Origin: a virus
Virus record (IMG/VR): IMGVR_UViG_3300042905_001985
Coordinates: 1-44,584 of that record
DNA length: 44,584 nucleotides
Reading direction: 5' to 3' (one strand)
The notes under the pieces are model-generated. The model ran no database searches. It had not been told where the DNA came from and saw only the letters and a list, made by a program, of their open reading frames with translations. The position numbers and the translations under genes are program-made. This document shows positions 909-35,503 of the stretch, in pieces (position 1 is the stretch's first letter; every line of letters begins with the position of its first letter).

Positions 909-935
909 TTATTTACACCTCTCTTTCATAATTTG

Positions 936-3125: not shown

Positions 3126-3156
3126 AGTAGTTATTATTATATAATCTTTTGGTTTA

Positions 3157-4758: not shown

Positions 4759-5059
4759 CTCTCCACGCTCCTGTATCTCCAAATGTAAGCAGTCCGCTAT
4801 TCATTCTCTCTAGATCTTCCTGATATTCTTCTTCAGTGACTCTACCGACACCTGCAATAAAGACTGCCTCGCCATCTGGTTGGCCATAATGAGATGCAGC
4901 CTTTTTTATTTCTACCATTTTGGTGATATCTCCACGCTCGGCTGGTATGTTAAGAACATTTCTGTCCTCATCAGCAAAGATAGAGCCGTCTGGAAGTCTC
5001 CAAACGTATATTCCGTATCTTGATTTGTCCTCTACTACAGATAATTTTGGCTTATTCAT
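4727..5059 (-). CDS. Conserved small phage protein upstream of portal
   Basis: A 110-residue soluble, charged protein with no membrane segment or recognised domain. It has a beta-rich N-terminal half (RYGIYVWRLPDGSIFADEDR) and a helical C-terminal half that ends in a basic tail. The stop lies 32 nt inside the portal gene, which suggests translational coupling. Its place between tail fibre and portal genes suggests a head or connector accessory, but that is inference from position only. Confidence 0.7.
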   Translation of the reverse strand: MNKPKLSVVEDKSRYGIYVWRLPDGSIFADEDRNVLNIPAERGDITKMVEIKKAASHYGQPDGEAVFIAGVGRVTEEEYQEDLERMNSGLLTFGDTGAWRDAARARRSLS

Positions 5060-5092
5060 ACCACAATGTTAGCACATTATGATTATTTTTGG

Positions 5093-5929
5093 CTAAGATT
5101 GGTCCAAGAAGTAGACAATTTTTTCTAATGTTGGCACTTTTGTAAACGATCCACTAGTCTTTAGCCACACGGTATCAATATACTCAAGACCATCTATTAC
5201 ATTTATATAATCTCCATTAGATGTTGTTACAAGGGTGACTCCACCGTTAAGATTTAGTTGATATACAGCATTATCTGAGATACTTAGAACTCTATCTGGA
5301 ACAACGCTTTCGACGCCATCAAAATACTTTAGGTCTCCTGTTAATTTAACAGCAGGATTGCCAATGTATGAAGAAAGAGAGTCTTCAGTGACAAGACGAA
5401 CGTCTGATGCGAATCGTAGTTGATCTGAATATGGCTGATATATCGTTCCTGTAACGGACGATGTGTGTCTAGATTCATCTTTATCAAATAGCCTGATTGA
5501 ACCAGATGCCGATTCTCCAGTAGATATTGCAGCAGACGCACCAGTGAAAGTTATATGTATATTTCTTATGTCTTGTGCGCCTAGACTTGTATCTAGCATA
5601 TAAAGATTTTGTATATTAAAGTCACACGACCCAGTGTTTCCAAATCTTACTAAAAAGTTGTTAGACGAATCAGTTTCCAGTTTCGGATCAAACGTAAATG
5701 CGATGTGCTGCCATTGATTCATTATCACAGACGAAGTGCCTTGAGCAACGCCGTTTAGAAATATAGATGATGAATTAGATACGGCAATTCTATTTGAAGA
5801 ATTTAGGCTGGCTGAAAAAAGACTTGATGATAGGGCAGAAGAAGAAAATACTTCAAGAATCTTTGTTCTTGTAGAATTCTGATCATTCACCTTAATAAAA
5901 AAGCCTATAGTTCCAAGTTGTTTAATCAT
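5093..5929 (-). CDS. Tail protein with lamin-G/concanavalin-like domain
   Basis: A 278-residue Ser/Thr/Asn-rich beta protein. Residues ~10-130 follow the LamG/ConA-like pattern: GFFIKVND opening strand, SSSIFLNGVAQG, MNQWQHIAFTFDP, then a closing LDTSLGAQDIRNI segment. The rest is beta-rich with no family I recognise (VVPDRVLSISDNAVYQLNLNGG). AGGTG sits 8 nt before the ATG. It is encoded 11 nt after the much larger tail protein at 5941-9228 and looks like a smaller relative, so a role in host-surface glycan recognition at the tail tip is likely but inferred. Confidence 0.7.
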   Translation of the reverse strand: MIKQLGTIGFFIKVNDQNSTRTKILEVFSSSALSSSLFSASLNSSNRIAVSNSSSIFLNGVAQGTSSVIMNQWQHIAFTFDPKLETDSSNNFLVRFGNTGSCDFNIQNLYMLDTSLGAQDIRNIHITFTGASAAISTGESASGSIRLFDKDESRHTSSVTGTIYQPYSDQLRFASDVRLVTEDSLSSYIGNPAVKLTGDLKYFDGVESVVPDRVLSISDNAVYQLNLNGGVTLVTTSNGDYINVIDGLEYIDTVWLKTSGSFTKVPTLEKIVYFLDQS

Positions 5930-5940
5930 TTATTTCGCAC

Positions 5941-8900
5941 CTACCAAGTAATATTATAAGCATCTTTCATCCAGTCGGTTATTCTATCTATTTCAGTCTT
6001 AGTGTGAGCAGTATTAAATACCAAAACCCCAGAAACGTCTCCGTTTAAGAATCTGCTGGTTCCAGATGGATCTTGTCTATATCCTATCCTCATTGCTGAA
6101 GAATAACTTCCTGTTCCAGCATTTCCTGAAACCACAGATGAGTTGACAAAGAATGAACTTGAGTTGTTATTAAAGACTCCAACTAAAATGTTAAAGTTAT
6201 TATTAATTGACGCTCCTACAAGAACCTGGCCCGCTGCCATTCTAAATGTATTATTTTCAGTGTAGATCGCTGGCGCTGACGCGGAGTGTCCGACAATAGT
6301 ATTATTGCTATCGAATGCTCTACCGACAACATATACTGTCATTGGCTGGTTAATTGTTACACTAGAAGTAAAATAGTGATTTAATCCATTAAACTTATAT
6401 GTTGGTCTATCATCAAATAGTTCAAGCGGCTCATACCAAGCAATAGGTGAGCCAGACACCGTTGATCCAGAATATATTGCCATGTTATCCCAATATACTG
6501 GATCGCCAGATACTGAAGACCCATTATAGAATCTAAAACTTAACCAATTGGTTCCAGACGGAACCGTCATAGTTACCGAAGCAAAGTATGTGCCTACCTC
6601 ATTTGGAACTGAGGCAGAAAATGATGACAAGAGTACGCCAAGCGGAGAAGTGCTTGCGGCATACAACCCTATCCTTCTTGCACTAGCAGATGCAACAGAT
6701 TGGGTTTTCAATAAAGAAATATTTCCGATAACAGTGTATTGCTGACCTGGGAATATAAATCTTTTTGCACTGGATGAGGTTAAGTCATAAAAATATTCAA
6801 TAAAGGAGTCGGCTGAGGTGCCAGAAGGGACAACCTTTATGGATCGCACTCCGCCCGATGCAGTCTCGGTAGATGACTGTGCAGAAGCATTACTCGTCAA
6901 AAAGTCTGTTACGCTACCACTCTCAGATCCATTTGCTTGGTTTACCGTCAGAATATTTAAAGATTGGTATCTGTACTCTGGATTATTGGCAGTAGCCAAT
7001 ACAGATGCTGTTATTGCACTGCCAGACAAACTTGTCCACAATCTATTTGACGCTGATCCATCTGGATGTGGATCTTGTCCAAGTCCATTTGGAAATCTAG
7101 AGTCATACCATAGCAATAAATTAGAAGATAGCGTTGGGTCTAAAGATTTGGATGCTGGACTGAACTCAACATCAGCGGTATTTCTATATATGCGTACACC
7201 AGATCCATCAGTAAGGTATGTGGTGGGGGTTAAATCTAGTTCTGGCACATAAATTTGTGCGGAGGCAACAGATGCACTATTTATCCTTATTCTGTCTCCA
7301 GAATTATCTAGTATCTCAACATACGATCCACTGAACGGATAGGTTTCTATTTTAAAGTATTTTATTATTGGTGCATAGTTTGTTACATCGTCTGCCAAAA
7401 TATCTATATCAAATTGTATATATTTGTCCGATAGATCTATAAGATTAAGCCACTCTAAACTATTTACTTTCTGTAACTGAACACGCGATCTTATCGCCAC
7501 GCTAGATGAGTAATTATATAAAGATGCATATATCTTTACCTGAGATGCTGAAATAACATCTGGATATCCAAACTCAAATCTGTTTGCAGATATTATGGCA
7601 CTGCCAGAGTCTAGGTATTCTCCTAACGCCGCCCCATGAAGAATAAAGTTAGCATTTCCAAAAGATCTATTTCTAAACGACCCCTTTGTTGAGTCATATA
7701 TTAAAGAATATACTGGCTGCTCGTATTGATCAACTGATACAAAAGTAGATCCAGAAAAATTATCTTTGGTAATTATGAAAGATAGGAATGTTCCATTAAA
7801 CTGAGCAACATTATTAACGCTAGATATTACAGAAGAGTCGTCATATGTCAGCCCGCTACCTATTCTTATTACAGTATTGTCTGTTGGCGGGAAGTAACTA
7901 GATATTGGATCAGCGTCAAAAACGCTACCAGAGAATGATACAAGTGATGCAGTTTGAAGAGTCGATCCAGAAAGACCGAAATAAACAATACTTTGATTTT
8001 CAAAATTCATTCCAGTAACTATTGTTGGACTAGAAGTTATGTTGGGTATCCAGAATCTGGCGGAGGATGTTGATACATTGCTCTTAGCAACTAGATAGTA
8101 TGATCCAGAAAAGTTGGCAAAGTTAAAATCAATGACGCTACTAAACGGTGCCTGCCCATAAGACATTATTGTCTGTGGAAGACCTTCCTGTGGCAGAGTG
8201 CCATTAAGCCTCACCTCAACAAAAAATGGGTTCCCTCCCTGACCAAGAAGAGACTGTAGATTTTCTACTTCCAAATATGTTCCATATGTATCGCCAGCAG
8301 ATGATGTAAAGGCGACAACGTTATTTGATGTGTTAATTTTATTATCAAATGAAACTATACTTGGAACATCATATGGTATCGGCCTGATTCCATCCGAAGA
8401 ATGAATTAAGTTGTCATACTGAGTTAGTGACCATTCCTGAGGCTGATCCCATAGAGCATAAAAAGATTTCCTGCTTGCCTGTGTTGAGAAATTATAAAAG
8501 TCTCCACCAAGACTAATGAATATATTTTCATTAACGCTTTTACCAAGCCCGTAAACATAATGAGTTTTTGCTGTGTTGGATCTAATGTTAAATGCATATA
8601 ACGCAATTGAGTCTACCACGACTGCATAGTCTGAACTTCCATAGAAATCCATATAGTCGTTTGTGGAATGGCTTGTGTCGATTGGCAATGATATATTTGC
8701 AAAATTGTTTGTTATTGTTGATACTCCATTTACTATCAACTCTATTCCAGATCTATTCTGATTCATAACAATATGAGTTGGCTCATTAAGTTCTGCCATG
8801 CCATATGCAGCCTCTATATATGTAGTAGAAGTTCCGTATCTAAACATTAGATAGTTGTCTTTTAGATAAAGTCCGATATTCGGATTATTTCTTTTTGTTG

Positions 8901-15336: not shown

Positions 15337-15505
15337 AATCGTTATATTCAATTTTGATAAAATGTGAATGATATTTTTATTTGTATGATGCTATCATCTG
15401 CGCGCAGCATTATGCGGATTCTAGCGCGCACATAATGTGACGTACCCCACACAAAAAAGTCTAGAAAAGTGCCCGAAAGTGGCCCCGAATGTCGTACCCC
15501 CATGC
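15337..15505. other. Intergenic region with hairpin
   Basis: No ORF supported. It holds a possible stem of TGCGCGC (near 15398) with GCGCGCA (near 15422), and marks the change from AT-rich to GC-richer sequence. The right end leads into the first TGTC-type promoter. Confidence 0.4.
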
Positions 15506-15511
15506 TAGGAT
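15490..15511 (+). promoter_or_regulatory. Promoter P1, leaderless, for the gene at 15518
   Basis: TGTCGTACCC, six nt, then TAGGAT (-10). Exactly 6 nt separate the -10 hexamer from the ATG, so transcription should begin at or next to the start codon. No clear -35 hexamer. Confidence 0.6.
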
Positions 15512-15517
15512 CATTCC

Positions 15518-15724
15518 ATGAACGAAATGATGAACACCAGCAAGGTGCAGGCCCGTGGGGGCCTCGTGACCGTAGGCGCGTGGGACATGACCAACGCCTA
15601 CCACATGGGGCGCGTATTCGTGCGCGTCACCTGCCGCGATTGCGGCAACGTATCGGGCCACGCTCGCGCGTGGAGTGTTGACAGCGTGGCCGCTAGTGCG
15701 TGCCGCAAGTGTGAAGGGAACTGA
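15518..15724 (+). CDS. Small zinc-ribbon-like protein
   Basis: A 68-residue protein with two CxxC knuckles, CRDCG (~40-44) and CRKCE near the C-terminus, the spacing of a small zinc ribbon. It is first in a run of small plus-strand genes and is driven by a leaderless promoter with no Shine-Dalgarno. The function is unknown; zinc-ribbon proteins of this size in phage early regions often bind nucleic acid or host proteins. Confidence 0.7.
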   Translation: MNEMMNTSKVQARGGLVTVGAWDMTNAYHMGRVFVRVTCRDCGNVSGHARAWSVDSVAASACRKCEGN

Positions 15725-15725
15725 C

Positions 15726-15884
15726 ATGCGTGCAAAGATCACCGCGCTCTCGCAATACAGCGGCGAGCAGGTTCACATCGTTGAGGTAGAAGGTCATACC
15801 TTCTACGCGACAGTAGTTGGCACCGTCAAGGGCATCACGCTCGCTGGTGCCGTTGTCACCGCCCTTGAGATTGAGAAGGTGTAG
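15726..15884 (+). CDS. Small beta-rich protein
   Basis: A 52-residue protein that begins at the ATG 1 nt after the previous stop, with AAGGGA about 7 nt upstream. The sequence alternates hydrophobic strands (HIVEVEGHTFYATVVGTV, ITLAGAVVTALEIEKV), suggesting a small beta barrel. I do not recognise the family. Confidence 0.6.
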   Translation: MRAKITALSQYSGEQVHIVEVEGHTFYATVVGTVKGITLAGAVVTALEIEKV

Positions 15885-15886
15885 GA

Positions 15887-16033
15887 ATGAGCCTAATGCG
15901 TAAGTGTCCGACGTGTGGCGACACCTATTGGCCCGCCACTATGCATGAGTGCGACCTATGCCGCGCAGCGCGCGCTAGCCGTTACCCGTTGTCTGAATTG
16001 GCTATGCGACAGGCACGCAAGGCGCGCGCATGA
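15887..16033 (+). CDS. Small zinc-ribbon protein with basic tail
   Basis: A 48-residue ORF, translated by eye, with AAGGTG 6 nt before the ATG. It has CPTCG and CDLC knuckles (residues 7-10 and 22-25), then an Arg/Ala-rich basic C-terminus (RQARKARA), a plan that suits a nucleic-acid-binding zinc ribbon. Its stop overlaps the ATG of the membrane peptide that follows. Confidence 0.6.
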   Translation: MSLMRKCPTCGDTYWPATMHECDLCRAARASRYPLSELAMRQARKARA

Positions 16034-16101
16034 TCATCCTATGTCTAATAGTCGGGGGGCTAATCCTATTTGGCCTGACCTTCGGGATATCCACAAGATA
16101 A
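16030..16101 (+). CDS. Tiny single-TM peptide
   Basis: A 23-residue ORF starting in an ATGA overlap with the previous gene. It begins MIILCLIVGGLILFG and is almost entirely one hydrophobic helix with a short polar end. It belongs to a set of similar tiny membrane peptides at unit ends (17570, 19042, 19695, 26763, 26849). Its 3' end runs into the first DnaA-box-like sequence. Confidence 0.45.
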   Translation: MIILCLIVGGLILFGLTFGISTR

Positions 16102-16333
16102 TCCACAGGCTAGAAAGTTATCCACAGATCTGTCTTTCTATCCACAGGGTTAGGGTAGTTATCCACAGATGAGTTGGATATTAGTCAGAGTTATCCACAG
16201 GTCCGCCGCCCAAACTGTGGATAACCATGTGACTAATGTGGATAACCTGTGCATAACCTGTGTATAACTTGTGGATAACCTGTGGATAAGTTGTGCATAA
16301 CGTTATCCACACCTGTGGATAACCTGTGGAAAA
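16087..16333. other. Candidate replication origin: array of 16 DnaA-box-like 9-mers
   Basis: Nine exact copies of TTATCCACA or its complement start at 16118, 16159, 16191, 16216, 16237, 16270, 16281, 16303 and 16314. Seven single-mismatch copies start at 16087, 16099, 16138, 16248, 16259, 16292 and 16325. The left six boxes are on the plus strand; those to the right are on the minus strand except 16303. Apart from the end of a tiny ORF, nothing is encoded here. This is the strict bacterial DnaA-box consensus and its density equals that of a chromosomal oriC. It could be a DnaA-dependent phage origin or a site that titrates host DnaA. Confidence 0.75.
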
Positions 16334-16354
16334 CCCGGGCGCTTTTTCCAGATT

Positions 16355-16392
16355 TGTCAAGTTTACGACCGTTACGAAAAAATCCCTGAAAT
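16355..16392 (+). repeat. TTACGA...TCCCTGAAA element, copy 1
   Basis: TGTCAAG-type start, two TTACGA hexamers (16363, 16372), an A-run, then a variant TCCCTGAAAT. It is the first of ten related elements and lies directly after the DnaA-box array. Confidence 0.5.
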
Positions 16393-16394
16393 CA

Positions 16395-16516
16395 CAGGCT
16401 TTTTGGCGTGCGAGGCTGAAAAGCCTTGCAGCATAAGGGTTTTCGACATGCCAAAAGTTGTTGCATACCAAGGGTTTTCGGCTGCGGCTGAAAAGCCTTG
16501 CGGCATAAGGACTTTT
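16395..16516 (+). terminator. Hairpin cluster downstream of the origin
   Basis: Two stems with GAAA tetraloops (AGGCT/AGCCT at 16413-16426; GGCT/AGCC at 16486-16497) are interleaved with three AAGG-type hairpin repeats ending in GGGTTTTC or GGACTTTTT. It resembles the insulator cassettes further right in a different order and probably stops transcription leaving the origin. Confidence 0.5.
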
Positions 16517-16618
16517 TGCATGGTAACGATTCTGTAACATCGATGTGATGTAGACCACATTAGAGACACCCTAGATATGTCCACATATCGGTCATATGGG
16601 TGTGTCAGATTAGGTAGA

Positions 16619-16640
16619 TGTCAGACCCCCATGATAGCCT
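16619..16640 (+). promoter_or_regulatory. Promoter P2 for the 16668 operon
   Basis: TGTCAGACCC, six nt, TAGCCT. Unlike the leaderless set, about 27 nt with an AAAGGAG ribosome binding site separate it from the ATG. An inverted repeat (ACACCC/GGGTGT around 16565-16605) lies upstream. Confidence 0.55.
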
Positions 16641-16667
16641 TAGGGCGTAGAAAGAAAGGAGCGCACC

Positions 16668-16820
16668 ATGCGCAAGGTAATGATTCGCCTCGTCACCTCC
16701 GGCCTAGAGTGGACCGAAGAACTGAACGAGGATCAGGTGGCCCTGTACGTTTCGGGGGTTACTCGCGCTGGCACGTCAGTAGTGACGGGCCTTGAGTTTC
16801 TAGAGGAGGTGTCCGCATGA
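16668..16820 (+). CDS. Small protein, first of a four-gene unit
   Basis: A 50-residue ORF, translated by eye, with AAAGGAG 7 nt upstream. It is an acidic alpha/beta protein (MIRLVTSGLEWTEELNEDQV, TGLEFLEEVSA). Its stop overlaps the next start (ATGA). The family is unknown. Confidence 0.65.
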   Translation: MRKVMIRLVTSGLEWTEELNEDQVALYVSGVTRAGTSVVTGLEFLEEVSA

Positions 16821-17104
16821 TTGAGGTGTCGCGTATCGTCAAGGGCTTCGCCCATGATCTGCCTGCCTTGTTTGAGGCTCCCATCGTTTCGGGCAACTTT
16901 GTCGCCACTCTTTGGATGACCGCCGAACCTATGACGGACTGGCGCAACTATGAGTTTGTGCGCGTCACTGAGGTTGAGTCTGGCGAAAGTATTGACCTAG
17001 ACATCTATGACAGCGTAACATGGCTACAGCCCGAAGATGCCGACAGCCCTGCGCTACAGGCTGAACTCATTACCGCACTCGCTGCGAAAGGAATAGAACT
17101 GTGA
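16817..17104 (+). CDS. Hypothetical early-region protein
   Basis: A 95-residue acidic soluble protein with AGGAGG upstream and ATGA coupling to the previous gene. It is mixed alpha/beta (VSGNFVATLWMTAEP, YEFVRVTEVESGESIDLDIY) with a C-terminal helix. No motif recognised. The next gene starts with GTG overlapping its stop. Confidence 0.7.
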   Translation: MIEVSRIVKGFAHDLPALFEAPIVSGNFVATLWMTAEPMTDWRNYEFVRVTEVESGESIDLDIYDSVTWLQPEDADSPALQAELITALAAKGIEL

Positions 17105-17397
17105 TTACCACCGCTGAGACTCTGCCGACTGGTGACAGGTTTGTCACCGCTCGCACTCGCATCGATCACCCGATGGCCGATGAGGTTTCCATCGCGCTAG
17201 GTGACAATGGCTACTGTAACTTTCCGCACTCCGTCGAACTCGCATTCTTCATGAATGGTGAGTGGGTGTCTGAGGTTGTTCCTGAGTTTGCGGAATATGC
17301 CGACGCTCTCGCCTATGACACTCGCGTCTATGGTTGGGTGCCGCTCTCCAAGTTTGCTTCCTTCATTGCTACCTACTCCGCTAAGATTGGTGCATGA
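17101..17397 (+). CDS. Hypothetical early-region protein
   Basis: A 98-residue protein starting with GTG in a GTGA overlap. It is beta-rich with aromatic strands (VSIALGDNGYCNFPHSVELAFF, TRVYGWVPLSKFASF). No known domain. It is third in the unit 16668-17635, whose tight overlaps imply co-translation. Confidence 0.7.
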   Translation: MITTAETLPTGDRFVTARTRIDHPMADEVSIALGDNGYCNFPHSVELAFFMNGEWVSEVVPEFAEYADALAYDTRVYGWVPLSKFASFIATYSAKIGA

Positions 17398-17573
17398 TGA
17401 CATACACACGGCGCGACGGCTATAAGTTTGTCTGGAACGGTAGCAAGACTGTCAACGTCTACGACTACAAGGGCTACAACATTGACTGTTTCTCACTTGA
17501 CTATGGCCGCGCATGGTCTGAGTCTGACATGCTGGAAATAATGGACCACTGCGACGAATGGGTGATCGTGTGA
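17394..17573 (+). CDS. Small acidic protein
   Basis: A 59-residue ORF, translated by eye, starting ATGATG in an overlap with the previous stop. It is rich in Tyr, Trp and Asp (YKFVWNGSKTVNVYDYKGYN, WSESDMLEIMDHCDEW). No family recognised. It is followed by a GTGA-coupled membrane peptide. Confidence 0.65.
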   Translation: MMTYTRRDGYKFVWNGSKTVNVYDYKGYNIDCFSLDYGRAWSESDMLEIMDHCDEWVIV

Positions 17574-17635
17574 TCATTCTGGCCTGCATCGCTGGCGCGT
17601 TGCTCGCGCTTGGATTCGCATTGGGGATGCGCTAA
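17570..17635 (+). CDS. Tiny single-TM peptide
   Basis: A 21-residue ORF starting with GTG in a GTGA overlap, beginning VIILACIAGALLALG and ending GMR. It is one hydrophobic helix and a terminal Arg, closely alike in plan and ending to the peptide at 19695. It is the last gene of its unit, immediately before an insulator cassette. Confidence 0.5.
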   Translation: MIILACIAGALLALGFALGMR

Positions 17636-17637
17636 AA

Positions 17638-17726
17638 GTGCTTGGTATATAAGGGTTTTTGAGGTGCCAAAAGTCCTTATGTACCAAGGCTTTTCGGGCG
17701 TGAGCGCCCGGGCACGTTTCGTGCCC
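17638..17726 (+). terminator. Tandem-hairpin insulator cassette A
   Basis: Four hairpins in series: two weak AAGG-type stems ending in T runs (17641-17659, 17675-17694), then GGGCG-TGAG-CGCCC (17696-17709) and GGGCACG-TTT-CGTGCCC (17710-17726). It separates the 16668 unit from the next promoter. Confidence 0.7.
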
Positions 17727-17728
17727 GT

Positions 17729-17766
17729 TGTCAAGTTACGACACGCCAAAAAAAGTCACTGAAATA
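17729..17766 (+). repeat. TTACGA...TCACTGAAA element, copy 2
   Basis: TGTCAAGTTACGA, an A-run, then GTCACTGAAATA, between cassette A and promoter P3. Confidence 0.55.
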
Positions 17767-17796
17767 CGACCGATATGCGAACGTCGATTAGGTGAA

Positions 17797-17818
17797 TGTC
17801 AGACCCATAGTGTAAGGT
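17797..17818 (+). promoter_or_regulatory. Promoter P3, leaderless
   Basis: TGTCAGACCC, six nt, TAAGGT; 6 nt to the ATG at 17825. Confidence 0.6.
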
Positions 17819-17824
17819 GGAACC

Positions 17825-17989
17825 ATGATGACCATCCTATCAAGCGCCTGTGGCGCGTCCCTTTCCGTAGTCGATGAGGCTACATTCGATGCGAACCCTA
17901 ACGGATTCGCTTGCTGCTCCGTGTGCGATTCGATCCTAGCGTGCCGTAACGCTTGGATGTCAGACCCAGATGCTAAGGTGATCGCATGA
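17825..17989 (+). CDS. Small Cys-containing protein, C-terminus built on an embedded promoter
   Basis: A 54-residue ORF, translated by eye, with no ribosome binding site; the upstream promoter predicts a leaderless mRNA. It has a CCSVC...C cluster (residues 30-40). Its last residues (WMSDPDAKVIA) are encoded by the next TGTC-type promoter, so the sequence is read both as protein and as promoter. Function unknown. Confidence 0.6.
   Translation: MMTILSSACGASLSVVDEATFDANPNGFACCSVCDSILACRNAWMSDPDAKVIA
17958..17979 (+). promoter_or_regulatory. Promoter P4, leaderless, inside the upstream gene
   Basis: TGTCAGACCC, six nt, TAAGGT; 6 nt to the ATG at 17986. It lies wholly within the 3' end of the 17825 gene. 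Confidence 0.6.
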
Positions 17990-18105
17990 ACAAGATGACA
18001 CACATTGACTATTCCGCCGCCGCGCAGGAGCGCGAGGCATGGAAGGCATGGCTCCAAGCCAAGGCCGCAGAGCGTAGACTGTCAGACCCTAGTGATAAGG
18101 TGTAG
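17986..18105 (+). CDS. Small helical basic protein with embedded promoter
   Basis: A 39-residue ORF, translated by eye, overlapping the previous stop (ATGA). It is mainly one amphipathic Ala/Lys/Trp helix (EREAWKAWLQAKAAERR). Its end LSDPSDKV is encoded by promoter P5. Coding is supported by the conserved layout of three neighbours, but it is short. Confidence 0.5.
   Translation: MNKMTHIDYSAAAQEREAWKAWLQAKAAERRLSDPSDKV
18080..18101 (+). promoter_or_regulatory. Promoter P5, leaderless, inside the upstream gene
   Basis: TGTCAGACCC, six nt, TAAGGT; 6 nt to the ATG at 18108. Confidence 0.6.
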
Positions 18106-18107
18106 TC

Positions 18108-18212
18108 ATGAATGAAGAAGAACTGTATGAGAACTTCCTCCGCTTGGAGGCCACCCTTGACCTTGACCCTAACCCTTGGGTGTCAGACCTAGATGCTAAG
18201 GTGGGTGCATGA
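18108..18212 (+). CDS. Small acidic protein with embedded promoter
   Basis: A 34-residue ORF, translated by eye, with an acidic helix (MNEEELYENFLRLEATLDL). Its C-terminal WVSDLDAKVGA is encoded by promoter P6. It starts from its own leaderless promoter. Confidence 0.5.
   Translation: MNEEELYENFLRLEATLDLDPNPWVSDLDAKVGA
18181..18202 (+). promoter_or_regulatory. Promoter P6, leaderless, inside the upstream gene
   Basis: TGTCAGACCT, six nt, TAAGGT; 6 nt to the ATG at 18209. Confidence 0.6.
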
Positions 18213-18340
18213 TGTGGAATGTTGTCTACAATGAGCGCGTGATCGCGGCATATGAGAGCCTGCAAGGTGCGCGTATGCACTTCGGCATGGTAATGAGTGC
18301 CGACAACTGGAACAACCTATACATTCGGAGGGAATGGTAA
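18209..18340 (+). CDS. Small protein preceding whiB-like gene
   Basis: A 43-residue ORF, translated by eye, ATGATG start overlapping the previous stop. The sequence contains NERVIAAYESLQGARMHF and ends NLYIRREW; the layout beta-hairpin plus helix suggests a small soluble fold. Its 3' end carries GGAGGG, the ribosome binding site of the WhiB-like gene. Confidence 0.6.
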   Translation: MMWNVVYNERVIAAYESLQGARMHFGMVMSADNWNNLYIRREW

Positions 18341-18342
18341 GC

Positions 18343-18588
18343 ATGTGGCAGGATAAGGCGGCGTGTCTTGACGCCGATTCATCGTTGTTTCTCACGGGCG
18401 TCACGTCCCGTGTCCTACAGGCTAAGGCAATCTGTGAGCGTTGCCCTGTAATTGACGATTGCCTTGCGTTCGCGCTGGACAATGAGGACTTTGAGCCGCA
18501 CGTCTATGGCGGCATGACTGGCGATGAGCGTAGGGTTATCGCTAAAGAAATCGAATCGGAAATGATGGGAGAGTATGTCAGTGCCTGA
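18343..18588 (+). CDS. WhiB-family Fe-S transcriptional regulator
   Basis: An 81-residue WhiB-like (Wbl) protein. The four Fe-S cysteines are at 8, 31, 34 and 40 (spacing Cx22Cx2Cx5C) in AACLD, AICERCPVIDDC, and the Gly-rich turn VYGGMTGDERR follows, as in the family. Such proteins carry a 4Fe-4S cluster, bind region 4 of the primary sigma factor and alter promoter choice; phage versions are known from mycobacteriophage TM4. Wbl proteins are essentially confined to actinobacteria and their phages, so this is good evidence for the host group. An ATG three codons upstream (18334) is an alternative start. Confidence 0.93.
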   Translation: MWQDKAACLDADSSLFLTGVTSRVLQAKAICERCPVIDDCLAFALDNEDFEPHVYGGMTGDERRVIAKEIESEMMGEYVSA

Positions 18589-18751
18589 CGTTAGCATCTT
18601 TGCGCTGGCCGCGTTTCTCGCGGTCGCATCACTCGCGGTGTTCGCACTTGCCTATGGGTGGTTCGACAATAAGCGCGAGCAATGGTATCAAGACGGGTGG
18701 ACCGATGGATGGGAAGCCTATAGCGAGGTGTCGAAAGTCCTTGATACATAA
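18575..18751 (+). CDS. Small membrane protein with soluble tail
   Basis: A 58-residue ORF, translated by eye, overlapping the whiB-like stop. The first ~30 residues form one TM helix (IFALAAFLAVASLAVFALAY), then a charged Trp/Tyr-rich tail (QWYQDGWTDGWEAY). A GTG two codons downstream has better ribosome-binding spacing. The last codons extend into the first hairpin of cassette B. Confidence 0.6.
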   Translation: MSVPDVSIFALAAFLAVASLAVFALAYGWFDNKREQWYQDGWTDGWEAYSEVSKVLDT

Positions 18752-18826
18752 GGGTTTTCAGGCGTGCCCGAAAGTCCTTGGTACATAAGGGTTTTCGGGC
18801 CTCGCGCCCGGGCACGTTCCGTGCCC
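18739..18826 (+). terminator. Tandem-hairpin insulator cassette B
   Basis: Two hairpins of type CCTT-7nt-AAGG followed by GGGTTTTC (18739-18753, 18776-18790), then GGGC/GCCC (18797-18809) and GGGCACG-TTC-CGTGCCC (18810-18826). Same order as cassettes A and C. Confidence 0.7.
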
Positions 18827-18827
18827 A

Positions 18828-18866
18828 ATGTCAAGTTACGACGGTGTGAAATAAGTCACTGAAATA
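18828..18866 (+). repeat. TTACGA...TCACTGAAA element, copy 3
   Basis: TGTCAAGTTACGA...AAGTCACTGAAATA, directly before the TTGTAT of promoter P7. Confidence 0.55.
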
Positions 18867-18868
18867 TG

Positions 18869-18898
18869 TTGTATCCTGTCGTACCCGTATGCTAGGAT
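18869..18898 (+). promoter_or_regulatory. Promoter P7, leaderless
   Basis: TTGTAT (-35), 18-nt spacer containing TGTCGTACCC, TAGGAT (-10); 6 nt to the ATG at 18905. Confidence 0.65.
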
Positions 18899-18904
18899 TG
18901 GTCT

Positions 18905-19045
18905 ATGTCAAATCGTACTAATCATCGAAGGTCAGCCGACGCGCAGCGTCGGGTTATTGAGTTGCGGCGGTCTGCCGCAGCATCGCCCCATCGTAATCGG
19001 GCTAAGTATTCGCGCAAGGTCAAGCATCCTAAGGCGGAATGGTGA
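18905..19045 (+). CDS. Small very basic protein
   Basis: A 46-residue ORF, translated by eye, rich in Arg/Lys/His throughout (NRTNHRRSADAQRRVIELRR, HRNRAKYSRKVKH). It probably binds nucleic acid. Its leaderless promoter and lack of a ribosome binding site match its neighbours. The stop overlaps the next GTG start. Confidence 0.6.
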   Translation: MSNRTNHRRSADAQRRVIELRRSAAASPHRNRAKYSRKVKHPKAEW

Positions 19046-19119
19046 ATGAGTTCACCGCCATGTTCGCCTGTATTGCAATAGGCGCTATCGTCCTAGTGAT
19101 CATTGCTAGATTCTTCTAA
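19042..19119 (+). CDS. Tiny single-TM peptide
   Basis: A 25-residue ORF with a GTG start in a GTGA overlap: short polar N-terminus, then one TM helix (ACIAIGAIVLVIIARFF). It shares the unit-end position with the peptides at 16030, 17570 and 19695. Confidence 0.5.
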   Translation: MNEFTAMFACIAIGAIVLVIIARFF

Positions 19120-19125
19120 CACCCC

Positions 19126-19155
19126 TTGACCGTTGTCAGTCCCCTAGTGTAAGGT
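19126..19155 (+). promoter_or_regulatory. Promoter P8, leaderless
   Basis: TTGACC (-35), 18-nt spacer with TGTCAGTCCC, TAAGGT (-10); 6 nt to the ATG at 19162. It has the best -35 of the leaderless set and no hairpin cassette before it. Confidence 0.7.
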
Positions 19156-19161
19156 AGTCCT

Positions 19162-19698
19162 ATGATTACAACCGATACCCCCACCGCCCTTGACCTGTTC
19201 CGTTCCCTCATCATGACCGCCACCCTCTCGCAAGTTGAGGCCGCTAGCGTCTGGTATCACGACGCGCAAGAGGTGGCCGAAGATGTGGCCGAGAATCTGA
19301 ACGCTACGCTAGAAGTTGGCGCGTCTGTCGTGTCCGCATTCTCGCCGCGTGAGCGTTGGTCTACTAATGTCGCTAAGGCTCTCGCATTCTCGCAGGGTAA
19401 GCCTGTCGCGGGTCTGTCGAATAATGTTCGCATGGCCGAGGCCGCACTAGTGCAGGGCTTCGATGCGCTAAAGGGTCTAAAGACTAATGCGTTCGCTCGT
19501 GCTATCGCGGGCGATACTGACGCGGTAGTGATCGACGTGTGGATGTGCCGTGCCGCTAACCTTGACTCCGACTCTCCTAACGTGGGACAATACAGGATGC
19601 TAGCCGATGCCGTGCGAGAGGTTGCGGCAGAGTTCGGCATCACGCCGCGCACCGCGCAGGCGTTGATCTGGATTATCGTTAGGGGAGGTGCCGCGTGA
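19162..19698 (+). CDS. Helix-hairpin-helix glycosylase-like actinophage protein
   Basis: A 178-residue mainly helical protein of a family common in actinophages. It has SAFSPRERWSTNVAKAL (~58-74), GLKTNAFARAIAGDTDAVVIDVWMCRA (~105-131) and a C-terminal TAQALIWIIVRG. The KTxxFxxxIxGD...VIDVWM pattern resembles the HhH-GPD module of DNA glycosylases, where the Asp is catalytic; the similarity is by eye and the enzyme activity is inference. It is driven by P8 and coupled to the membrane peptide after it. Confidence 0.7.
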   Translation: MITTDTPTALDLFRSLIMTATLSQVEAASVWYHDAQEVAEDVAENLNATLEVGASVVSAFSPRERWSTNVAKALAFSQGKPVAGLSNNVRMAEAALVQGFDALKGLKTNAFARAIAGDTDAVVIDVWMCRAANLDSDSPNVGQYRMLADAVREVAAEFGITPRTAQALIWIIVRGGAA

Positions 19699-19763
19699 TC
19701 ATCTTGCTAAGCGTGCTAGGGATGCTACTCATGCTAGGGCTAATGCTAGGGATGCGGAGGTGA
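19695..19763 (+). CDS. Tiny single-TM peptide
   Basis: A 22-residue ORF with a GTG start in a GTGA overlap. It begins VIILLSVLGMLLMLG and ends GMRR, a Leu/Met/Gly helix with a basic end, very like the 17570 peptide. Its stop codon abuts cassette C. Confidence 0.5.
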   Translation: MIILLSVLGMLLMLGLMLGMRR

Positions 19764-19857
19764 AAACCCTTATGCCATAAGGGTTTTTGGCAGGTCCGAA
19801 AAGTCCTTGTATACCAAGGGTTTTCGGGCCTGCGGCCCGGGCACGCTTTGCGTGCCC
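19763..19857 (+). terminator. Tandem-hairpin insulator cassette C
   Basis: Four hairpins: AAAACCCTTATG/CATAAGGGTTTT (19763-19787), CCTTG-TATAC-CAAGG plus T-run (19805-19823), GGGCC-TGC-GGCCC (19826-19838), GGGCACGC-TTT-GCGTGCCC (19839-19857). Base changes in both arms relative to A and B preserve pairing. Confidence 0.75.
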
Positions 19858-19858
19858 T

Positions 19859-19901
19859 GTCAAGCCTTTTACGACGATCATTACGAAATCACTGAAATAT
19901 T
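19859..19901 (+). repeat. TTACGA...TCACTGAAA element, copy 4
   Basis: TGTCAAG, TTACGA twice, AAATCACTGAAATA, followed by a second TCACGGAAAAA copy at about 19902. Confidence 0.55.
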
Positions 19902-19926: not shown

Positions 19927-19955
19927 TTGAGACTGTCAGACCATACTGCTATCTT
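19927..19955 (+). promoter_or_regulatory. Promoter P9 with leader
   Basis: TTGAGA (-35), 17-nt spacer with TGTCAGACCA, TATCTT (-10). A 27-nt stretch with AGGAGG follows before the ATG at 19983, so this unit uses an ordinary leader. Confidence 0.7.
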
Positions 19956-19982
19956 ATTACTACCAACCTATTAGGAGGAAGT

Positions 19983-20447: not shown

Positions 20448-20520
20448 GCGTCTGTAGAGCAGCGGAGTGCTCGCCACCCTGTCACGGTGGAGGTCGTGGG
20501 TTCGAATCCCATCAGATGCG
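20448..20520 (+). tRNA. tRNA-Asp (GTC)
   Basis: 73 nt with acceptor GCGTCTG/CAGATGC, anticodon loop CTGTCAC giving GTC, T-arm GGTTCGAATCC and discriminator G; no encoded CCA. A perfect hairpin (TGAGCATG...CATGCTCA) ends 4 nt before it. Confidence 0.92.
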
Positions 20521-20552
20521 CGTAAACAAACTACAAACTCTAAGGAGTCTAG

Positions 20553-21082: not shown

Positions 21083-21154
21083 TGGCGTGTGGCGCAATGG
21101 CAGCGCAATCGGCTGTTAACCGATGGGTTGCAGGTTCGAATCCTGCCACGCCAG
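21083..21154 (+). tRNA. tRNA-Asn (GTT)
   Basis: 72 nt with acceptor TGGCGTG/CACGCCA, D-arm GCGC...GCGC, anticodon loop CTGTTAA giving GTT, T-arm CAGGTTCGAATCCTG, discriminator G. A GC hairpin follows after 5 nt. Confidence 0.92.
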
Positions 21155-21159
21155 CGCCC

Positions 21160-21233: not shown

Positions 21234-21262
21234 TTGATACTGTCGTACCCTACTGCTAGTCT
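21234..21262 (+). promoter_or_regulatory. Promoter P10 with leader
   Basis: TTGATA (-35), 17-nt spacer with TGTCGTACCC, TAGTCT (-10). The ATG at 21295 is 32 nt downstream with a purine-rich AAGAGAAAGAGAG before it. Confidence 0.7.
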
Positions 21263-21294
21263 GTATATACCTACTAAGAGAAAGAGAGTCCAGC

Positions 21295-22111: not shown

Positions 22112-22184
22112 GTCCCCATCGTCTAGTGGCCAAGGACGCCGCCCTTTCAAGGCGGTAGCACGGGTTCGAATCCCGTTGGGGATA
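22112..22184 (+). tRNA. tRNA-Glu (TTC)
   Basis: 73 nt with acceptor GTCCCCA/TGGGGAT (one G-T pair), anticodon loop CTTTCAA giving TTC, T-arm CGGGTTCGAATCCCG, discriminator A. A GGGAGGGC...GCCCTCCC hairpin starts 2 nt after it. Confidence 0.92.
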
Positions 22185-22186
22185 CT

Positions 22187-22337: not shown

Positions 22338-22366
22338 TTGTGACTGTCAGACCCGTAGTGTATCGT
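22338..22366 (+). promoter_or_regulatory. Promoter P11 with leader
   Basis: TTGTGA (-35), 17-nt spacer with TGTCAGACCC, TATCGT (-10). The leader to the ATG at 22406 carries GGAGA. Confidence 0.7.
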
Positions 22367-22405
22367 TGTCCCATAAGTTGATTCACTACCGATTGGAGAT
22401 ACACA

Positions 22406-23516: not shown

Positions 23517-23596
23517 GCCTAGTAGCCCCCAAGGTGGGGGAGCGGTCTGTAAAACCGTCGCCGTTGGCATGGTTGGTTCGATTCCAACACTAGGCA
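23517..23596 (+). tRNA. tRNA-Tyr (GTA)
   Basis: 80 nt. Acceptor GCCTAGT/ACTAGGC, anticodon loop CTGTAAA giving GTA, a long variable arm as expected for bacterial tRNA-Tyr, T-arm GTTGGTTCGATTCCAAC, discriminator A. Confidence 0.88.
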
Positions 23597-23612
23597 CAAA
23601 AGACTTGACAAA

Positions 23613-23702: not shown

Positions 23703-23731
23703 TTGATGCTGTCGTACCCTCATGCTAGCCT
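23703..23731 (+). promoter_or_regulatory. Promoter P12 with leader
   Basis: TTGATG (-35), 17-nt spacer with TGTCGTACCC, TAGCCT (-10); AAAGGAG precedes the start at 23757. It appears to drive the 13-gene run to 26.53 kb. Confidence 0.7.
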
Positions 23732-23756
23732 TTATAAAACGACGAAAGGAGACATG

Positions 23757-28210: not shown

Positions 28211-29248
28211 CTATCTTGTAGCGTGTGGCTTATTCTCAGCAACCGCAACACTAGAGATATCTACATACTGTGCATGTGCATGTAAGTCATTTAGACTACG
28301 AACACCAGTATATGATAGACCACTTCTAATGCCACCAGCCCAAGAGTCTAGAACGTTCTGTACGGGGCCAGCAAAAGTTACCCTAGTCTGGGCACCCTCT
28401 ACCACCGAAACAGATCCTCTCCAGTCCTTCTGAGCCGATTCTGAGGCCATTCCACGCAACATCTTATAGGATTTATCCCCATCAAAAATTAGATCGCCAG
28501 GAGTCTCCTGTGTGCCAGCAAGGGCAGAGCCAATCATAACTGCGTCAGCGCCAGCAGCGAGAGCCTTGACAGCATCTCCTGAATTCTTAATTCCACCATC
28601 AGCGACAATGGACGGACCTGTTCCCTTTGGAAGAGCCTCACGAATATCTATAATTGATGATAGAGTAGGCATACCGTGTCCAGTTACGATACGGGTCGTA
28701 CACATTCCACCGCCGCCAATACCAACACGAATAGAGTCCGCACCAGCATCTGCCAGTGCCATGAAGCCATCGTATGTCGATACATTGCCAGCCATGATAT
28801 GAATACTATGACCAAGAGATTTCCTAAGATCGGCCACCGCCTTGATTGCGTATTCGCTGTGACCATTGGCAGTATCTACTAAAATCAATCCTGCGCCAGC
28901 CTCACATAAAACTAAGGCACGATAAAAGTCATGATCTTTTGCTCCAACAGCAGCGCCTACAAAGAATCCACTATCTTTTGTATGACAAACTTGATTACTC
29001 TGTTCCTCAACAGACAGATACCTATGGATGATGCCAAGACCACCATTACGACGCATAGCAATGGCCATGTCTACTTCACAGACAGTATCCATCGGAGCGG
29101 CAACGATTGGCAGGCTAAGATTAATTGATCTAACAGACTCTCCAATCTTAGTAGAGATATCTACATCGTGACGACTATCAATGTCAGAATACTGAGGAAT
29201 AAGAAGAATGTCGTCAAAGCACGGTGAGTACTCTCTGTAAGCCTTCAC
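28211..29248 (-). CDS. IMP dehydrogenase/GMP reductase family enzyme
   Basis: A 345-residue TIM-barrel enzyme of the IMPDH/GMPR family without CBS domains. The NAD(P)-site strand AAPMDTV (~51), HxYL-type motif GGLGIIHRYLSVEEQ (~70-84), the catalytic-Cys loop GIGGGGMCTTR (~176-186), TGHGMPT, ADGGIKNSGD (~217-226), GADAVMIGSALAG and MRGMASESAQ are all present. The usual GPGS before the Cys is GGGG-M here. IMPDH makes XMP from IMP; GMPR does the reverse from GMP; I cannot decide which. It starts with GTG overlapping the previous stop and presumably adjusts guanine nucleotide pools for replication. Confidence 0.88.
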   Translation of the reverse strand: MKAYREYSPCFDDILLIPQYSDIDSRHDVDISTKIGESVRSINLSLPIVAAPMDTVCEVDMAIAMRRNGGLGIIHRYLSVEEQSNQVCHTKDSGFFVGAAVGAKDHDFYRALVLCEAGAGLILVDTANGHSEYAIKAVADLRKSLGHSIHIMAGNVSTYDGFMALADAGADSIRVGIGGGGMCTTRIVTGHGMPTLSSIIDIREALPKGTGPSIVADGGIKNSGDAVKALAAGADAVMIGSALAGTQETPGDLIFDGDKSYKMLRGMASESAQKDWRGSVSVVEGAQTRVTFAGPVQNVLDSWAGGIRSGLSYTGVRSLNDLHAHAQYVDISSVAVAENKPHATR

Positions 29249-29436
29249 AGTCCAGACCGATACTTTCTACGAAGTGGAGGCTTGATGCCTGCTCGTACAC
29301 ATGCAAGATACGCTATACCGTATCGCTTCTCTGCGCCCTCTCCTGCCTTACCACCGACCGCCCTACGCAGTTCCTGCGCGGCAGACTCAAGGCTTCTCAG
29401 CAGTCTTTCTTTTTCCTCGTTGCTTAGGTTCTCCAT
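29245..29436 (-). CDS. Small basic helical protein
   Basis: A 63-residue protein: NEEKERLLRSLESAAQELRR helix, then GIAYLACVRAGIKPPLRRKY. Basic C-terminus. It is coupled to the GuaB-like gene by a GTGA overlap. Family unknown. Confidence 0.6.
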   Translation of the reverse strand: MENLSNEEKERLLRSLESAAQELRRAVGGKAGEGAEKRYGIAYLACVRAGIKPPLRRKYRSGL

Positions 29437-29599
29437 AAATCACTTTCCCATCGTCTATATATTGTTTGTACTTTAACTTACATGGCTCGCACCATTGAAT
29501 TGCTGTAAACTTTTTACTACTCACACCGTACTTTGTCATACAATCGAACTCCTGATGTTTAGTGCTGATGCAGGTGCTATTGTAGTTGTGCTGATCCAT
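29387..29599 (-). CDS. Small Cys-containing basic protein
   Basis: A 70-residue protein with scattered Cys (C10, C20) and WCEPCKLKYKQYIDDG at ~36-50, then a basic tail (KQRGKRKTAEK). The 50-nt overlap with the next gene is large but the CxxC motif and pattern support coding. Possibly a small zinc protein. Confidence 0.5.
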   Translation of the reverse strand: MDQHNYNSTCISTKHQEFDCMTKYGVSSKKFTAIQWCEPCKLKYKQYIDDGKVIYGEPKQRGKRKTAEKP

Positions 29600-29756
29600 A
29601 ACGCTCCATATGCATTGTCAGTGTTTGTCTCATCATTGCATTATATGCTACTGAAGCAAGATCTCTCCAGGTTTTTTCATCTGAAACCTTGTCATATTCT
29701 GCCATAGCGATTGCCATAGCCTCAATGCATCTAACATCTTCCGGTCTAGTCATCAT
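29577..29756 (-). CDS. Small helical protein
   Basis: A 59-residue ORF, translated by eye, ATGATG start overlapping the previous stop: CIEAMAIAMAEYDKVSDEKT, WRDLASVAYNAMMRQTL. Helical, Met-rich. Family unknown. Confidence 0.6.
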   Translation of the reverse strand: MMTRPEDVRCIEAMAIAMAEYDKVSDEKTWRDLASVAYNAMMRQTLTMHMERYGSAQLQ

Positions 29757-29980
29757 AGCACCCGAATGCTAGACATCTGACGATTGCTCTTAAGATTAAT
29801 AGTATTAGACAGAGTGCTACACATCACATCAAGTACAATTGATATGTTATTGTATAGATCTTCTGGGTGACAACGGATTCCTGTATCTTGCTTGCCGTGG
29901 GCATCTTCATATGCTATTGACAATAGACCTAGAAACTCTTCGAACGTAAAATAGTAGTTATCATTATACGACATCTGCAT
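29753..29980 (-). CDS. Small hypothetical protein
   Basis: A 75-residue protein; I start at ATG 29978-29980, which overlaps the preceding gene by 17 nt, rather than the longer frame that overlaps it by 170 nt. Sequence includes YYFTFEEFLGLLSIAYEDAH and DLYNNISIVLDVMCSTL. Acidic and helical at first. Family unknown. Confidence 0.55.
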   Translation of the reverse strand: MQMSYNDNYYFTFEEFLGLLSIAYEDAHGKQDTGIRCHPEDLYNNISIVLDVMCSTLSNTINLKSNRQMSSIRVL

Positions 29981-30452
29981 TATCCAATCTATGCGTGGGC
30001 CAGTAATAGTTGCAGTCCTCGCAACATACATAGTCTCTATAAAAGGCTGTCTCCAGACCGTATTCAGGATAGAGTTCGGGAGCCTTGATGTGCAGGTTGG
30101 CACGATGAGTTGCGATAACTTTTTCAAATCTATCATCTAGCATCCATGCTGGACGCAATTGGGATGAAGAATGCTCAAACTTTGTCAGATACAGGTTTGC
30201 AATCACCGCCCAATTGTTTTCCCACTTATAGCCGCGCTTAGCCATTTCTCTGGCAATCCAGAAAAGATAATTTGTCAGGGCTGCTTCATGGCCAGCAAAC
30301 ATTTTAGTGGCTGGGTGATTTACCCAACCCTTAGTCTCGCCAGCCAAAGCGGAAAGAATCTGGCGACCCTCCAGCAGTTGCTTGACCAAACGTTTGTTGT
30401 CTAAGGTCTCAGCGCACACTTTGAATGATCTATCGGGAAGAAATACCTGCAT
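29964..30452 (-). CDS. MSMEG_6728-type conserved protein
   Basis: A 162-residue protein of the family typified by actinobacterial MSMEG_6728: opening MQVFLPDRSFKVCAETLDNK, RLVKQLLEGRQILSAL, GWVNHPATKMFAGHEAALTNY. Family members are common in actinobacteria and their phages and are sometimes described as related to pyrimidine-dimer glycosylases, which I would not assert here. The conserved NHPATKMWxGH-like centre suggests an enzyme active site. AAGGA lies 7 nt before the ATG. Confidence 0.7.
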   Translation of the reverse strand: MQVFLPDRSFKVCAETLDNKRLVKQLLEGRQILSALAGETKGWVNHPATKMFAGHEAALTNYLFWIAREMAKRGYKWENNWAVIANLYLTKFEHSSSQLRPAWMLDDRFEKVIATHRANLHIKAPELYPEYGLETAFYRDYVCCEDCNYYWPTHRLDNADVV

Positions 30453-30454
30453 TA

Positions 30455-30703
30455 CTATTCCTTGTCTTTGATGTGGTTTCTTTCTTTGTACCAAGAAATT
30501 GCATTACGAGAGAATACTATCATGTATGCGAATGCAAAAGCAATAAATCCATACTGCTGTGTTACAAGCGCATAGATGATCCATAGAATCTCAGAAAAGA
30601 TTCCTATAAGCCAAGCCCACCACAATTTTCTACCAGCGAGCCAGAGTCCTGTGACGCCCACGACCATGAGAAGCCATGACCACCACCATGCAATATCATG
30701 CAA
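30455..30703 (-). CDS. Small multi-spanning membrane protein
   Basis: An 82-residue protein with three hydrophobic segments (WSWLLMVVGVTGLWLAG, LIGIFSEILWIIYALV, FIAFAFAYMIVF) and a basic tail. The WAGRKxWWAWxxGIxxExLWxxYA pattern is common in phage-encoded small membrane proteins and faintly resembles part of PnuC transporters. It starts with TTG directly after the previous stop; a later ATG at codon 13 would cut the first helix. Confidence 0.65.
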   Translation of the reverse strand: MHDIAWWWSWLLMVVGVTGLWLAGRKLWWAWLIGIFSEILWIIYALVTQQYGFIAFAFAYMIVFSRNAISWYKERNHIKDKE

Positions 30704-30769
30704 TTAAAAATCATCGCCATTCATCTGGCGGAACTTCTCTTCGAAGTAGTCGTCAATACTGTCGTTCAT
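30704..30769 (-). CDS. Tiny acidic protein
   Basis: A 21-residue ORF (SIDDYFEEKFRQMNGDDF) with AAGGGAG upstream and ATGA coupling to the zinc-ribbon gene. Small, but both junctions are tight. Confidence 0.4.
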   Translation of the reverse strand: MNDSIDDYFEEKFRQMNGDDF

Positions 30770-30951
30770 GATATCTCCCTTGGTAGGTCTAGCGGCGTTG
30801 GTGCCGTGACCTTAGTATGACACATAGCGCACTCAGCGTCAAGCAAATACTGAGCAATATTATACTCTTCATCGAACGTAACCTGGACAGTGAGCAGCCA
30901 ACTCCCACACATCGGACACTCAGGGGTTGGGATTCCTCTAGCATCTATCAT
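30766..30951 (-). CDS. Small zinc-ribbon protein
   Basis: A 61-residue protein with CPMCGSW (~12-18) and CAMCHT (~41-46), a two-knuckle zinc ribbon separated by a beta-rich acidic stretch (LLTVQVTFDEEYNIA). Function unknown. It follows the HslV-like gene by 9 nt. Confidence 0.65.
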   Translation of the reverse strand: MIDARGIPTPECPMCGSWLLTVQVTFDEEYNIAQYLLDAECAMCHTKVTAPTPLDLPREIS

Positions 30952-30960
30952 AACGCCTCA

Positions 30961-31497: not shown

Positions 31498-31515
31498 AAA
31501 GATTCCTCCAACTAA

Positions 31516-31620
31516 TTATCTGTTTGATCTTTTTTGATTGACAATTCTCTTTTGCTTGCGTAGGTCATTGATGAGTTCGTCTAGTTCTTCTTCTTCCTCG
31601 TCAATCCACCACTCGCTCAT
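31516..31620 (-). CDS. Tiny Glu-rich protein
   Basis: A 34-residue ORF, translated by eye: SEWWIDEEEEELDELINDLR then a basic end KQKRIVNQKR. Its ATG overlaps the stop of the sugar dehydratase gene. Probably one charged helix; function unknown. Confidence 0.5.
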   Translation of the reverse strand: MSEWWIDEEEEELDELINDLRKQKRIVNQKRSNR

Positions 31621-34564: not shown

Positions 34565-34605
34565 ACTTATATCCTATACCTTAAACAATCCATAGTCCAT
34601 CGTTT

Positions 34606-35502: not shown

Positions 35503-35503
35503 T

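Follow-up and report, generated by a model that had tools for sequence, protein, structure and literature searches.

Why should gene after gene in a virus begin at exactly the same distance from its promoter? This question is raised by the window studied here, the whole 44,584-nucleotide (nt) stretch of the IMG/VR virus record IMGVR_UViG_3300042905_001985, a 44.6-kb record that is probably a fragment (related records reach about 100 kb). Between positions 15490 and 23731 it carries 12 copies of the element TGTC(AG/GT)(A/T)CC-N7-TANNNT, all on the plus strand, in which the hexamer TANNNT has the form of an extended -10 promoter box, with TG usually directly 5' of it. At 7 of the 12 elements an ATG follows exactly 6 nt after the hexamer (genes starting at 15518, 17825, 17986, 18108, 18209, 18905, and 19162); these are the seven genes with this spacing named in an earlier note on this DNA, whose coordinates were exact throughout. 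At the other five, referred to as leadered here, the ATG lies 22 to 39 nt downstream. We find that leaderless transcription of the seven genes, with messages predicted to start at the start codon itself, is well supported. The 12 predicted promoters are the following, where SD stands for a Shine-Dalgarno sequence and ORF for an open reading frame.

15490..15517, plus strand: leaderless promoter 1, TGTCGTACC-N7-TAGGAT plus 6 nt, ATG 15518
16619..16667, plus strand: leadered promoter, TGTCAGACC-N7-TAGCCT, 27-nt distance, AAAGGAG SD, ATG 16668
17797..17824, plus strand: leaderless promoter 2, TGTCAGACC-N7-TAAGGT plus 6 nt, ATG 17825
17958..17985, plus strand: leaderless promoter 3 (TAAGGT), inside the 3' end of ORF 17825-17989, whose TGA overlaps ATG 17986 (ATGA)
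18080..18107, plus strand: leaderless promoter 4 (TAAGGT), embedded in the upstream ORF, ATG 18108
18181..18208, plus strand: leaderless promoter 5 (TAAGGT), embedded in the upstream ORF, ATG 18209
18877..18904, plus strand: leaderless promoter 6, TGTCGTACC-N7-TAGGAT plus 6 nt, ATG 18905
19134..19161, plus strand: leaderless promoter 7, TGTCAGTCC-N7-TAAGGT plus 6 nt, TTGACC upstream, ATG 19162
19934..19982, plus strand: leadered promoter (TATCTT), AGGAGG SD, ATG 19983
21241..21294, plus strand: leadered promoter (TAGTCT), weak SD (GAGAAAGAGAG), ATG 21295
22345..22405, plus strand: leadered promoter (TATCGT), GGAG SD, ATG 22406 (DUF932 gene)
23710..23753, plus strand: leadered promoter (TAGCCT), AAAGGAG SD, ATG 23754

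With up to three mismatches allowed, the 22-nt element matched the window 10 times against 0.55 expected, and none of 100 shuffles had as many matches. The chance that 7 of 12 elements share one ATG offset is ∼1e-7 to 1e-9, with 20 offsets allowed for. Neither of the window's minus-strand gene blocks, of which there are two, has TANNNT in excess 6 nt before ATG.

The same geometry is conserved in related phages. Exact matches to a 20-base form of the element, ATG included, were found in 36 IMG/VR contigs. In whole records, most element sites cluster in a single region on a single strand, and control matches are few. Given that the first pattern scan required TAAGGT plus ATG and was biased for this reason, the classes were compared on protein-fetched loci: 22 loci selected by DUF7178 protein similarity rather than by motif, which together with the window comprise 141 nonredundant sites. 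Their distance from the -10 hexamer to ATG is bimodal, with 41 sites at 6 nt, 7 at 7 nt, 3 at 8 to 18 nt, and the rest mostly at 19 to 57 nt; with 80 DUF932 loci added and a stricter motif, 38 sites were at 6 nt, 4 at 7 nt, 2 at 8 to 18 nt, and 132 at longer distances. Among orthologues of individual genes, the 6-nt geometry is kept in 7 of 8 for 18108, 17 of 33 for 19162, and 23 of 58 for 18905, and never for 21295 (0/60), 22406 (0/115), or 19983 (0/14). The spacing also outlasts the TGTC element (e.g., orthologues of 18905 in L168, L026, and L167, and of 19162 in L016, L169, and L172): in some orthologues TGTC is lost or TTGACA stands in its place, with the 6-nt spacing intact. As in the leaderless genes described for actinobacteria, the first T of TANNNT lies ∼12 nt before the start at all seven sites of the window, and 48 sites of the family set are at 6 to 7 nt.

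The nucleotides around the predicted start site point in the same direction. In a set of 366 sites, some of them from loci retrieved with a pattern containing ATG, the seventh nucleotide after the hexamer is A in 297 (81%) and the sixth is a pyrimidine in 311 (85%). Leadered sites taken alone have this pyrimidine-A (YA) context in 104 of 132 cases. A pyrimidine directly precedes the ATG at 42/42 leaderless sites versus 47/132 leadered ones, most of which have A there, showing that the leaderless ATGs follow the start-site rule and not the usual start-codon context. The earlier note had asked whether the 6-nt spacing is kept in related phages; the bimodal distances, the Y-1/A+1 context, and the orthologue counts all say that it is, and this conservation backs its proposal of systematic leaderless transcription. 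Its further idea of two cleanly divided expression classes holds in part. The gap between the two geometries is genuine. Class is not a fixed gene property, however, since two genes change it between relatives: 17825 has a leader in distant relatives, and 23754 is of the leaderless type in L155.

The hexamer itself also differs between the two classes. AAGG or AGGA is present in 7/7 leaderless hexamers of the window and in 0/5 leadered ones. In the protein-anchored loci, TAAGGT occurs at 18/42 leaderless versus 1/132 leadered sites and AGG at 27/42 versus 22/132 (p=1e-8), and close relatives have TAAGGT at 17/36 leaderless and 3/60 leadered sites. Among the matches listed, most leadered genes have an SD core beginning at -11 or -10, and the AAGG of TAAGGT-N6-ATG begins at -11. 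The statement that the six intervening nucleotides contain no SD is thus right as worded, but the hexamer itself places AAGG or AGGA at SD distance in all seven genes; likewise, the AGGAG-type sites ascribed to the leadered units are good at four of the five and weak at 21241. A second scan without ATG, covering mostly distant phages, gave 8 leaderless sites among at least 188, with no AGG excess among the matches listed, indicating that the hexamer bias belongs to the closer relatives of the window.

Of the 36 leaderless promoters in close relatives, 18 are embedded in an ORF upstream, which terminates close to the start codon. Mostly, the upstream TGA overlaps the ATG, and the promoter is then always read in one frame, giving different proteins with SDPDAKVIA-like tails. 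AGG is present in 17/18 of these embedded promoters versus 9/18 of the other leaderless ones (p=0.007), and TAAGGT in 13/18 versus 4/18 (p=0.007).

We propose that the array consists of σA-type extended -10 promoters of an uncultivated actinophage, presumably serving a block of early genes, and that each has TGTC at -28 to -25 as a second element. At seven of them, RNA polymerase would start on the A of the ATG and yield leaderless mRNAs, which actinobacterial ribosomes should translate well. Several of these promoters are contained in the last codons of the gene before them, and the stop codon of that gene shares nucleotides with the following ATG (ATGA). On mRNA reading through from upstream, the leaderless -10 probably doubles as an SD: TAAGGT would be read as codons of the upstream gene and, with AAGG at -11, as the SD of the downstream one, so that one sequence could serve two messages, a primary one that is leaderless and a polycistronic one led by an SD. 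Several points weigh against this proposal. The comparison of embedded with other promoters covers 36 sites from related phages, which are not independent, and was made after seeing the data. In more distant relatives (L172 and the AT-rich group), there are leaderless promoters that lack AGG, showing that an SD-like -10 is unnecessary for leaderless use. When the presence of AGG was compared with the absence of an upstream hairpin, TAAGGT was also found 3' of a strong hairpin (17797), and some of the 33 orthologues of 19162 do not have the 6-nt geometry. Taking these points into account, we give the whole proposal, a leaderless array with a -10 that is also SD and coding sequence on read-through mRNA, a probability of about 0.75.

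Which protein might read the TGTC element? We collected promoter candidates without reference to the motif, as TANNNT with a YA start site and an ORF that has an SD or an ATG at 6 nt. Among these candidates, 283 of 984 in one set and 147 of 249 in another have TGTC at one offset, exactly 16 nt ahead of the hexamer, as do 5 of 12 from the Streptomyces phage NootNoot; every other offset was far lower, the next best reaching 36 in the 984 set and 7 in the 249 set. The nucleotides after TGTC were AGACC (166), AGTGG (55, the full PafBC form), GGTGG (8), AGCCC, AGTCC, AGTAG, and others. This tail varies by phage at one register (TGTCNNAGGG, TGTCAGTGG, and others) and is sometimes mixed within one phage (L198, L192, L174, L240).

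Possibly, though we hold this tentatively, TGTC is read by the host PafBC, a LexA-independent DNA damage activator that acts by σ adaptation, or by a host WYL paralogue. This reading concerns the activator of the promoters and does not conflict with leaderless transcription. The RecA-NDp motif has been published as tTGTCRgtg-8nt-TannnT (PMC5656591), placing TGTC exactly 12 nt before TANNNT, as in the window, where the TGTCR core lies 11 nt before TANNNT as in PafBC/RecA-NDp promoters, and PafB contacts the -26 motif (PMC11804915). The concentration of TGTC at that one offset and the full TGTCRGTG in many relatives (11 in L240) are consistent with such a reader. Neither a WYL (PF13280) nor a σ70 region 2 (PF04542) gene was found in 25 phage records, which may be fragments, and a host factor is therefore the simple choice; a σ factor or WYL protein of phage origin was accordingly set aside as the reader. 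Against PafBC, the window tails are ACC, once TCC, rather than the gtg of the PafBC motif, and a -35-like TTG triplet, unneeded at PafBC promoters, is present at 14/69 leaderless and 99/266 leadered sites. The phage φC31 has no TGTC-N12-TANNNT, and the titles and abstracts retrieved on PafBC with phage mention no phage promoters of this kind, which is not proof of absence.

It is unlikely, although conceivable, that a phage protein activates the TGTC promoters instead. The best candidate would be WhiB, which is encoded in 24/25 records with these promoters or their relatives and whose gene lies in the array of the window; WhiB proteins bind region 4 of σA. They are, however, common among actinophages generally, none was seen in G005, the record with most sites, though a fragment, and early promoters must fire before phage proteins exist. 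We consider it still less likely that TGTCAGACC is an operator through which a phage repressor controls each early promoter. The tail after TGTCAG does vary by phage group (ACC, TGG, CCC, AGG), as operator specificity would, but different tails occur together in one phage (e.g., L190, L252), the sites are asymmetric and in fixed register to the -10, and no repressor was identified. The least probable alternative is that TAAGGT and TAGGAT are mainly SDs of transcripts starting further upstream, with a secondary promoter role: AAGG/AGGA does stand at the optimum SD position in 7/7 window sites and is enriched in leaderless-type sites, but about a third of these sites have no AGG, the leadered genes share TGTC-N12-TANNNT and the YA start site 7 nt after it yet have no SD at that place, the pyrimidine before 42/42 ATGs is unlike SD-led ATGs, and an SD without promoter function leaves the conserved TGTC and extended -10 unexplained.

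The leaderless array serves mostly small ORFs, listed here with the genes at its distal end.

15518..15724, plus strand: small ORF, 68 amino acids (aa), no orthologue among the fetched loci
17825..17989, plus strand: small ORF, 54 aa; the next promoter encodes its C-terminal tail, MSDPDAKVIA, and its homologues in relatives have leaders
17986..18105, plus strand: small ORF, 39 aa, leaderless orthologue in L176
18108..18212, plus strand: small ORF, 34 aa, TANNNT-N6-ATG kept in 7/8 orthologues
18209..18340, plus strand: small ORF, 43 aa
18334..18588, plus strand: WhiB-family protein (Pfam Whib, E=3e-17), distal gene of the leaderless array; ATG 18343 (MWQDKAACL) is the more likely start
18905..19045, plus strand: small basic ORF, 46 aa
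19162..19698, plus strand: DUF7178 protein, 178 aa (Pfam PF23802, E=4e-35)

The window also encodes ThyX, DUF932, an L5 gp82-like protein, and a prohead protease. Its DUF932 and DUF7178 proteins match those of Streptomyces, Mycobacterium, and Gordonia phages, and the surroundings of the ThyX, HNH, and DUF932 genes resemble the terminal-repeat region of Stanwilliamsviridae. These matches and gene content make an actinobacterial host likely, and synteny with that terminal repeat suggests that the gene block is presumably early. A near DNA search of the phage collection with the window gave no match. In a host-genome scan, one contig from a metagenome-assembled genome labeled Acidiferrobacteraceae had six array-type sites and is probably a misbinned phage.

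Several other features of the window stand out. In the noncoding stretch 16087-16333, 16 DnaA-box-like sites (TTATCCACA, at most one mismatch; nine exact) fill ∼250 bp, the right part at a strict 11-bp spacing, making it a candidate replication origin or DnaA-titration site; clusters in relatives are looser (up to 7). An intergenic module is repeated at 16360-16545, 17625-17770, 18724-18870, and 19753-19900, upstream of several transcription units, and consists of hairpins (AAGTCCTTGGTAC..AAGGGTTTTCGG; GCCCGGGCACG-TTCC-CGTGCCC), probably terminators or insulators, followed by TGTCAAGTTACGAC..TCACTGAAATA. Four phage tRNA genes lie amid the leadered units (Asp 20448-20521, Asn 21083-21155, Glu 22112-22185, Tyr 23517-23597). 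From 28211 to 44582, the minus strand carries a large sugar-modification block with GDP-mannose dehydratase, epimerases, DegT aminotransferases, several glycosyltransferases, fucosyltransferase-like genes, IMP dehydrogenase, and pyrimidine-dimer glycosylase.

Among the relatives, L172 (record G005) has ∼26 consecutive TGTCAGACC promoters at 138-7775, nearly one a gene, mostly just 3' of a GC-rich CCCGGGC sequence and with leaderless and leadered units interleaved. The promoter also precedes a short, conserved unit that lacks a clear ORF (ATAACTAAATA..CCTAGGCAAATAAGCC; L156:5187, L163:5082, L165:5667, L160:2582, L161:3360), perhaps a small RNA or, in some phages, a mini-ORF starting MSLAN; this unit has no match in the window.

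In this phage family, one promoter type serves many leaderless and leadered genes, which form matched natural pairs for studying the effect of leader loss. The overlap of -10 and SD, if true, would be a compact way to translate one gene from either of two mRNA types, and would render the constraints of promoter, SD, and coding sequence separable by mutation. The TGTC register common with PafBC promoters gives a testable claim on phage takeover of host transcription, for which Streptomyces phages offer a cultured system. A wider picture, more doubtful than the host-factor reading itself, would be that this widespread uncultivated actinophage group and its Streptomyces relatives run their early genes from promoters modeled on the DNA damage promoters of host PafBC and switched on by the single-stranded DNA of infection; in some of them the hexamer would be -10, SD, and coding sequence at once, each cassette carrying the next promoter and being translatable from leaderless or read-through mRNA.

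How does the array compare with known systems? Similar in gene content are the terminal repeats of the Stanwilliamsviridae NootNoot and Samisti12, both Streptomyces phages, in which related DUF932, ThyX, and HNH genes lie close together and all 7 and 5 forward TGTC-N12-TANNNT sites, respectively, have a YA start site, versus 0/2 such sites in a mid-genome 38 kb. In these phages, however, the tail after TGTC is mostly C-rich, the -10 is mostly TAGACT, and all units are leadered, with no leaderless copies seen. The mycobacterial PafBC-dependent RecA-NDp promoter (P1) shares the TGTCR core, the 11 nt to TANNNT, and the position at ∼-26, and its full TGTCRGTG is found in many relatives, but the window has ACC for the gtg tail and phage rather than repair genes downstream. 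Leaderless expression is already known in actinobacteria, where genes marked by TANNNT ∼12 bp upstream are common (PMC3160421) and, in mycobacteria, appear robustly translated (PMC7148126). The window shares with them the hexamer, its start 12 nt before the ATG, the ATG start, and the SD-led genes alongside, and differs in the phage gene array, the conserved -28 element, the embedded promoters, and the SD-like -10. Also known are leaderless promoters predicted in mycobacteriophages, namely, PL1/PR2 of Cluster O (PMC4351075) and P90 of Adephagia (PMC11373665). New here are the serial, family-wide array and, as we infer, the embedded -10 with its SD-like sequence and the link suggested by TGTC at -26: the mycobacteriophage promoters are single, whereas those of the window family stand many in series, have a common upstream element, and are conserved across a large family.

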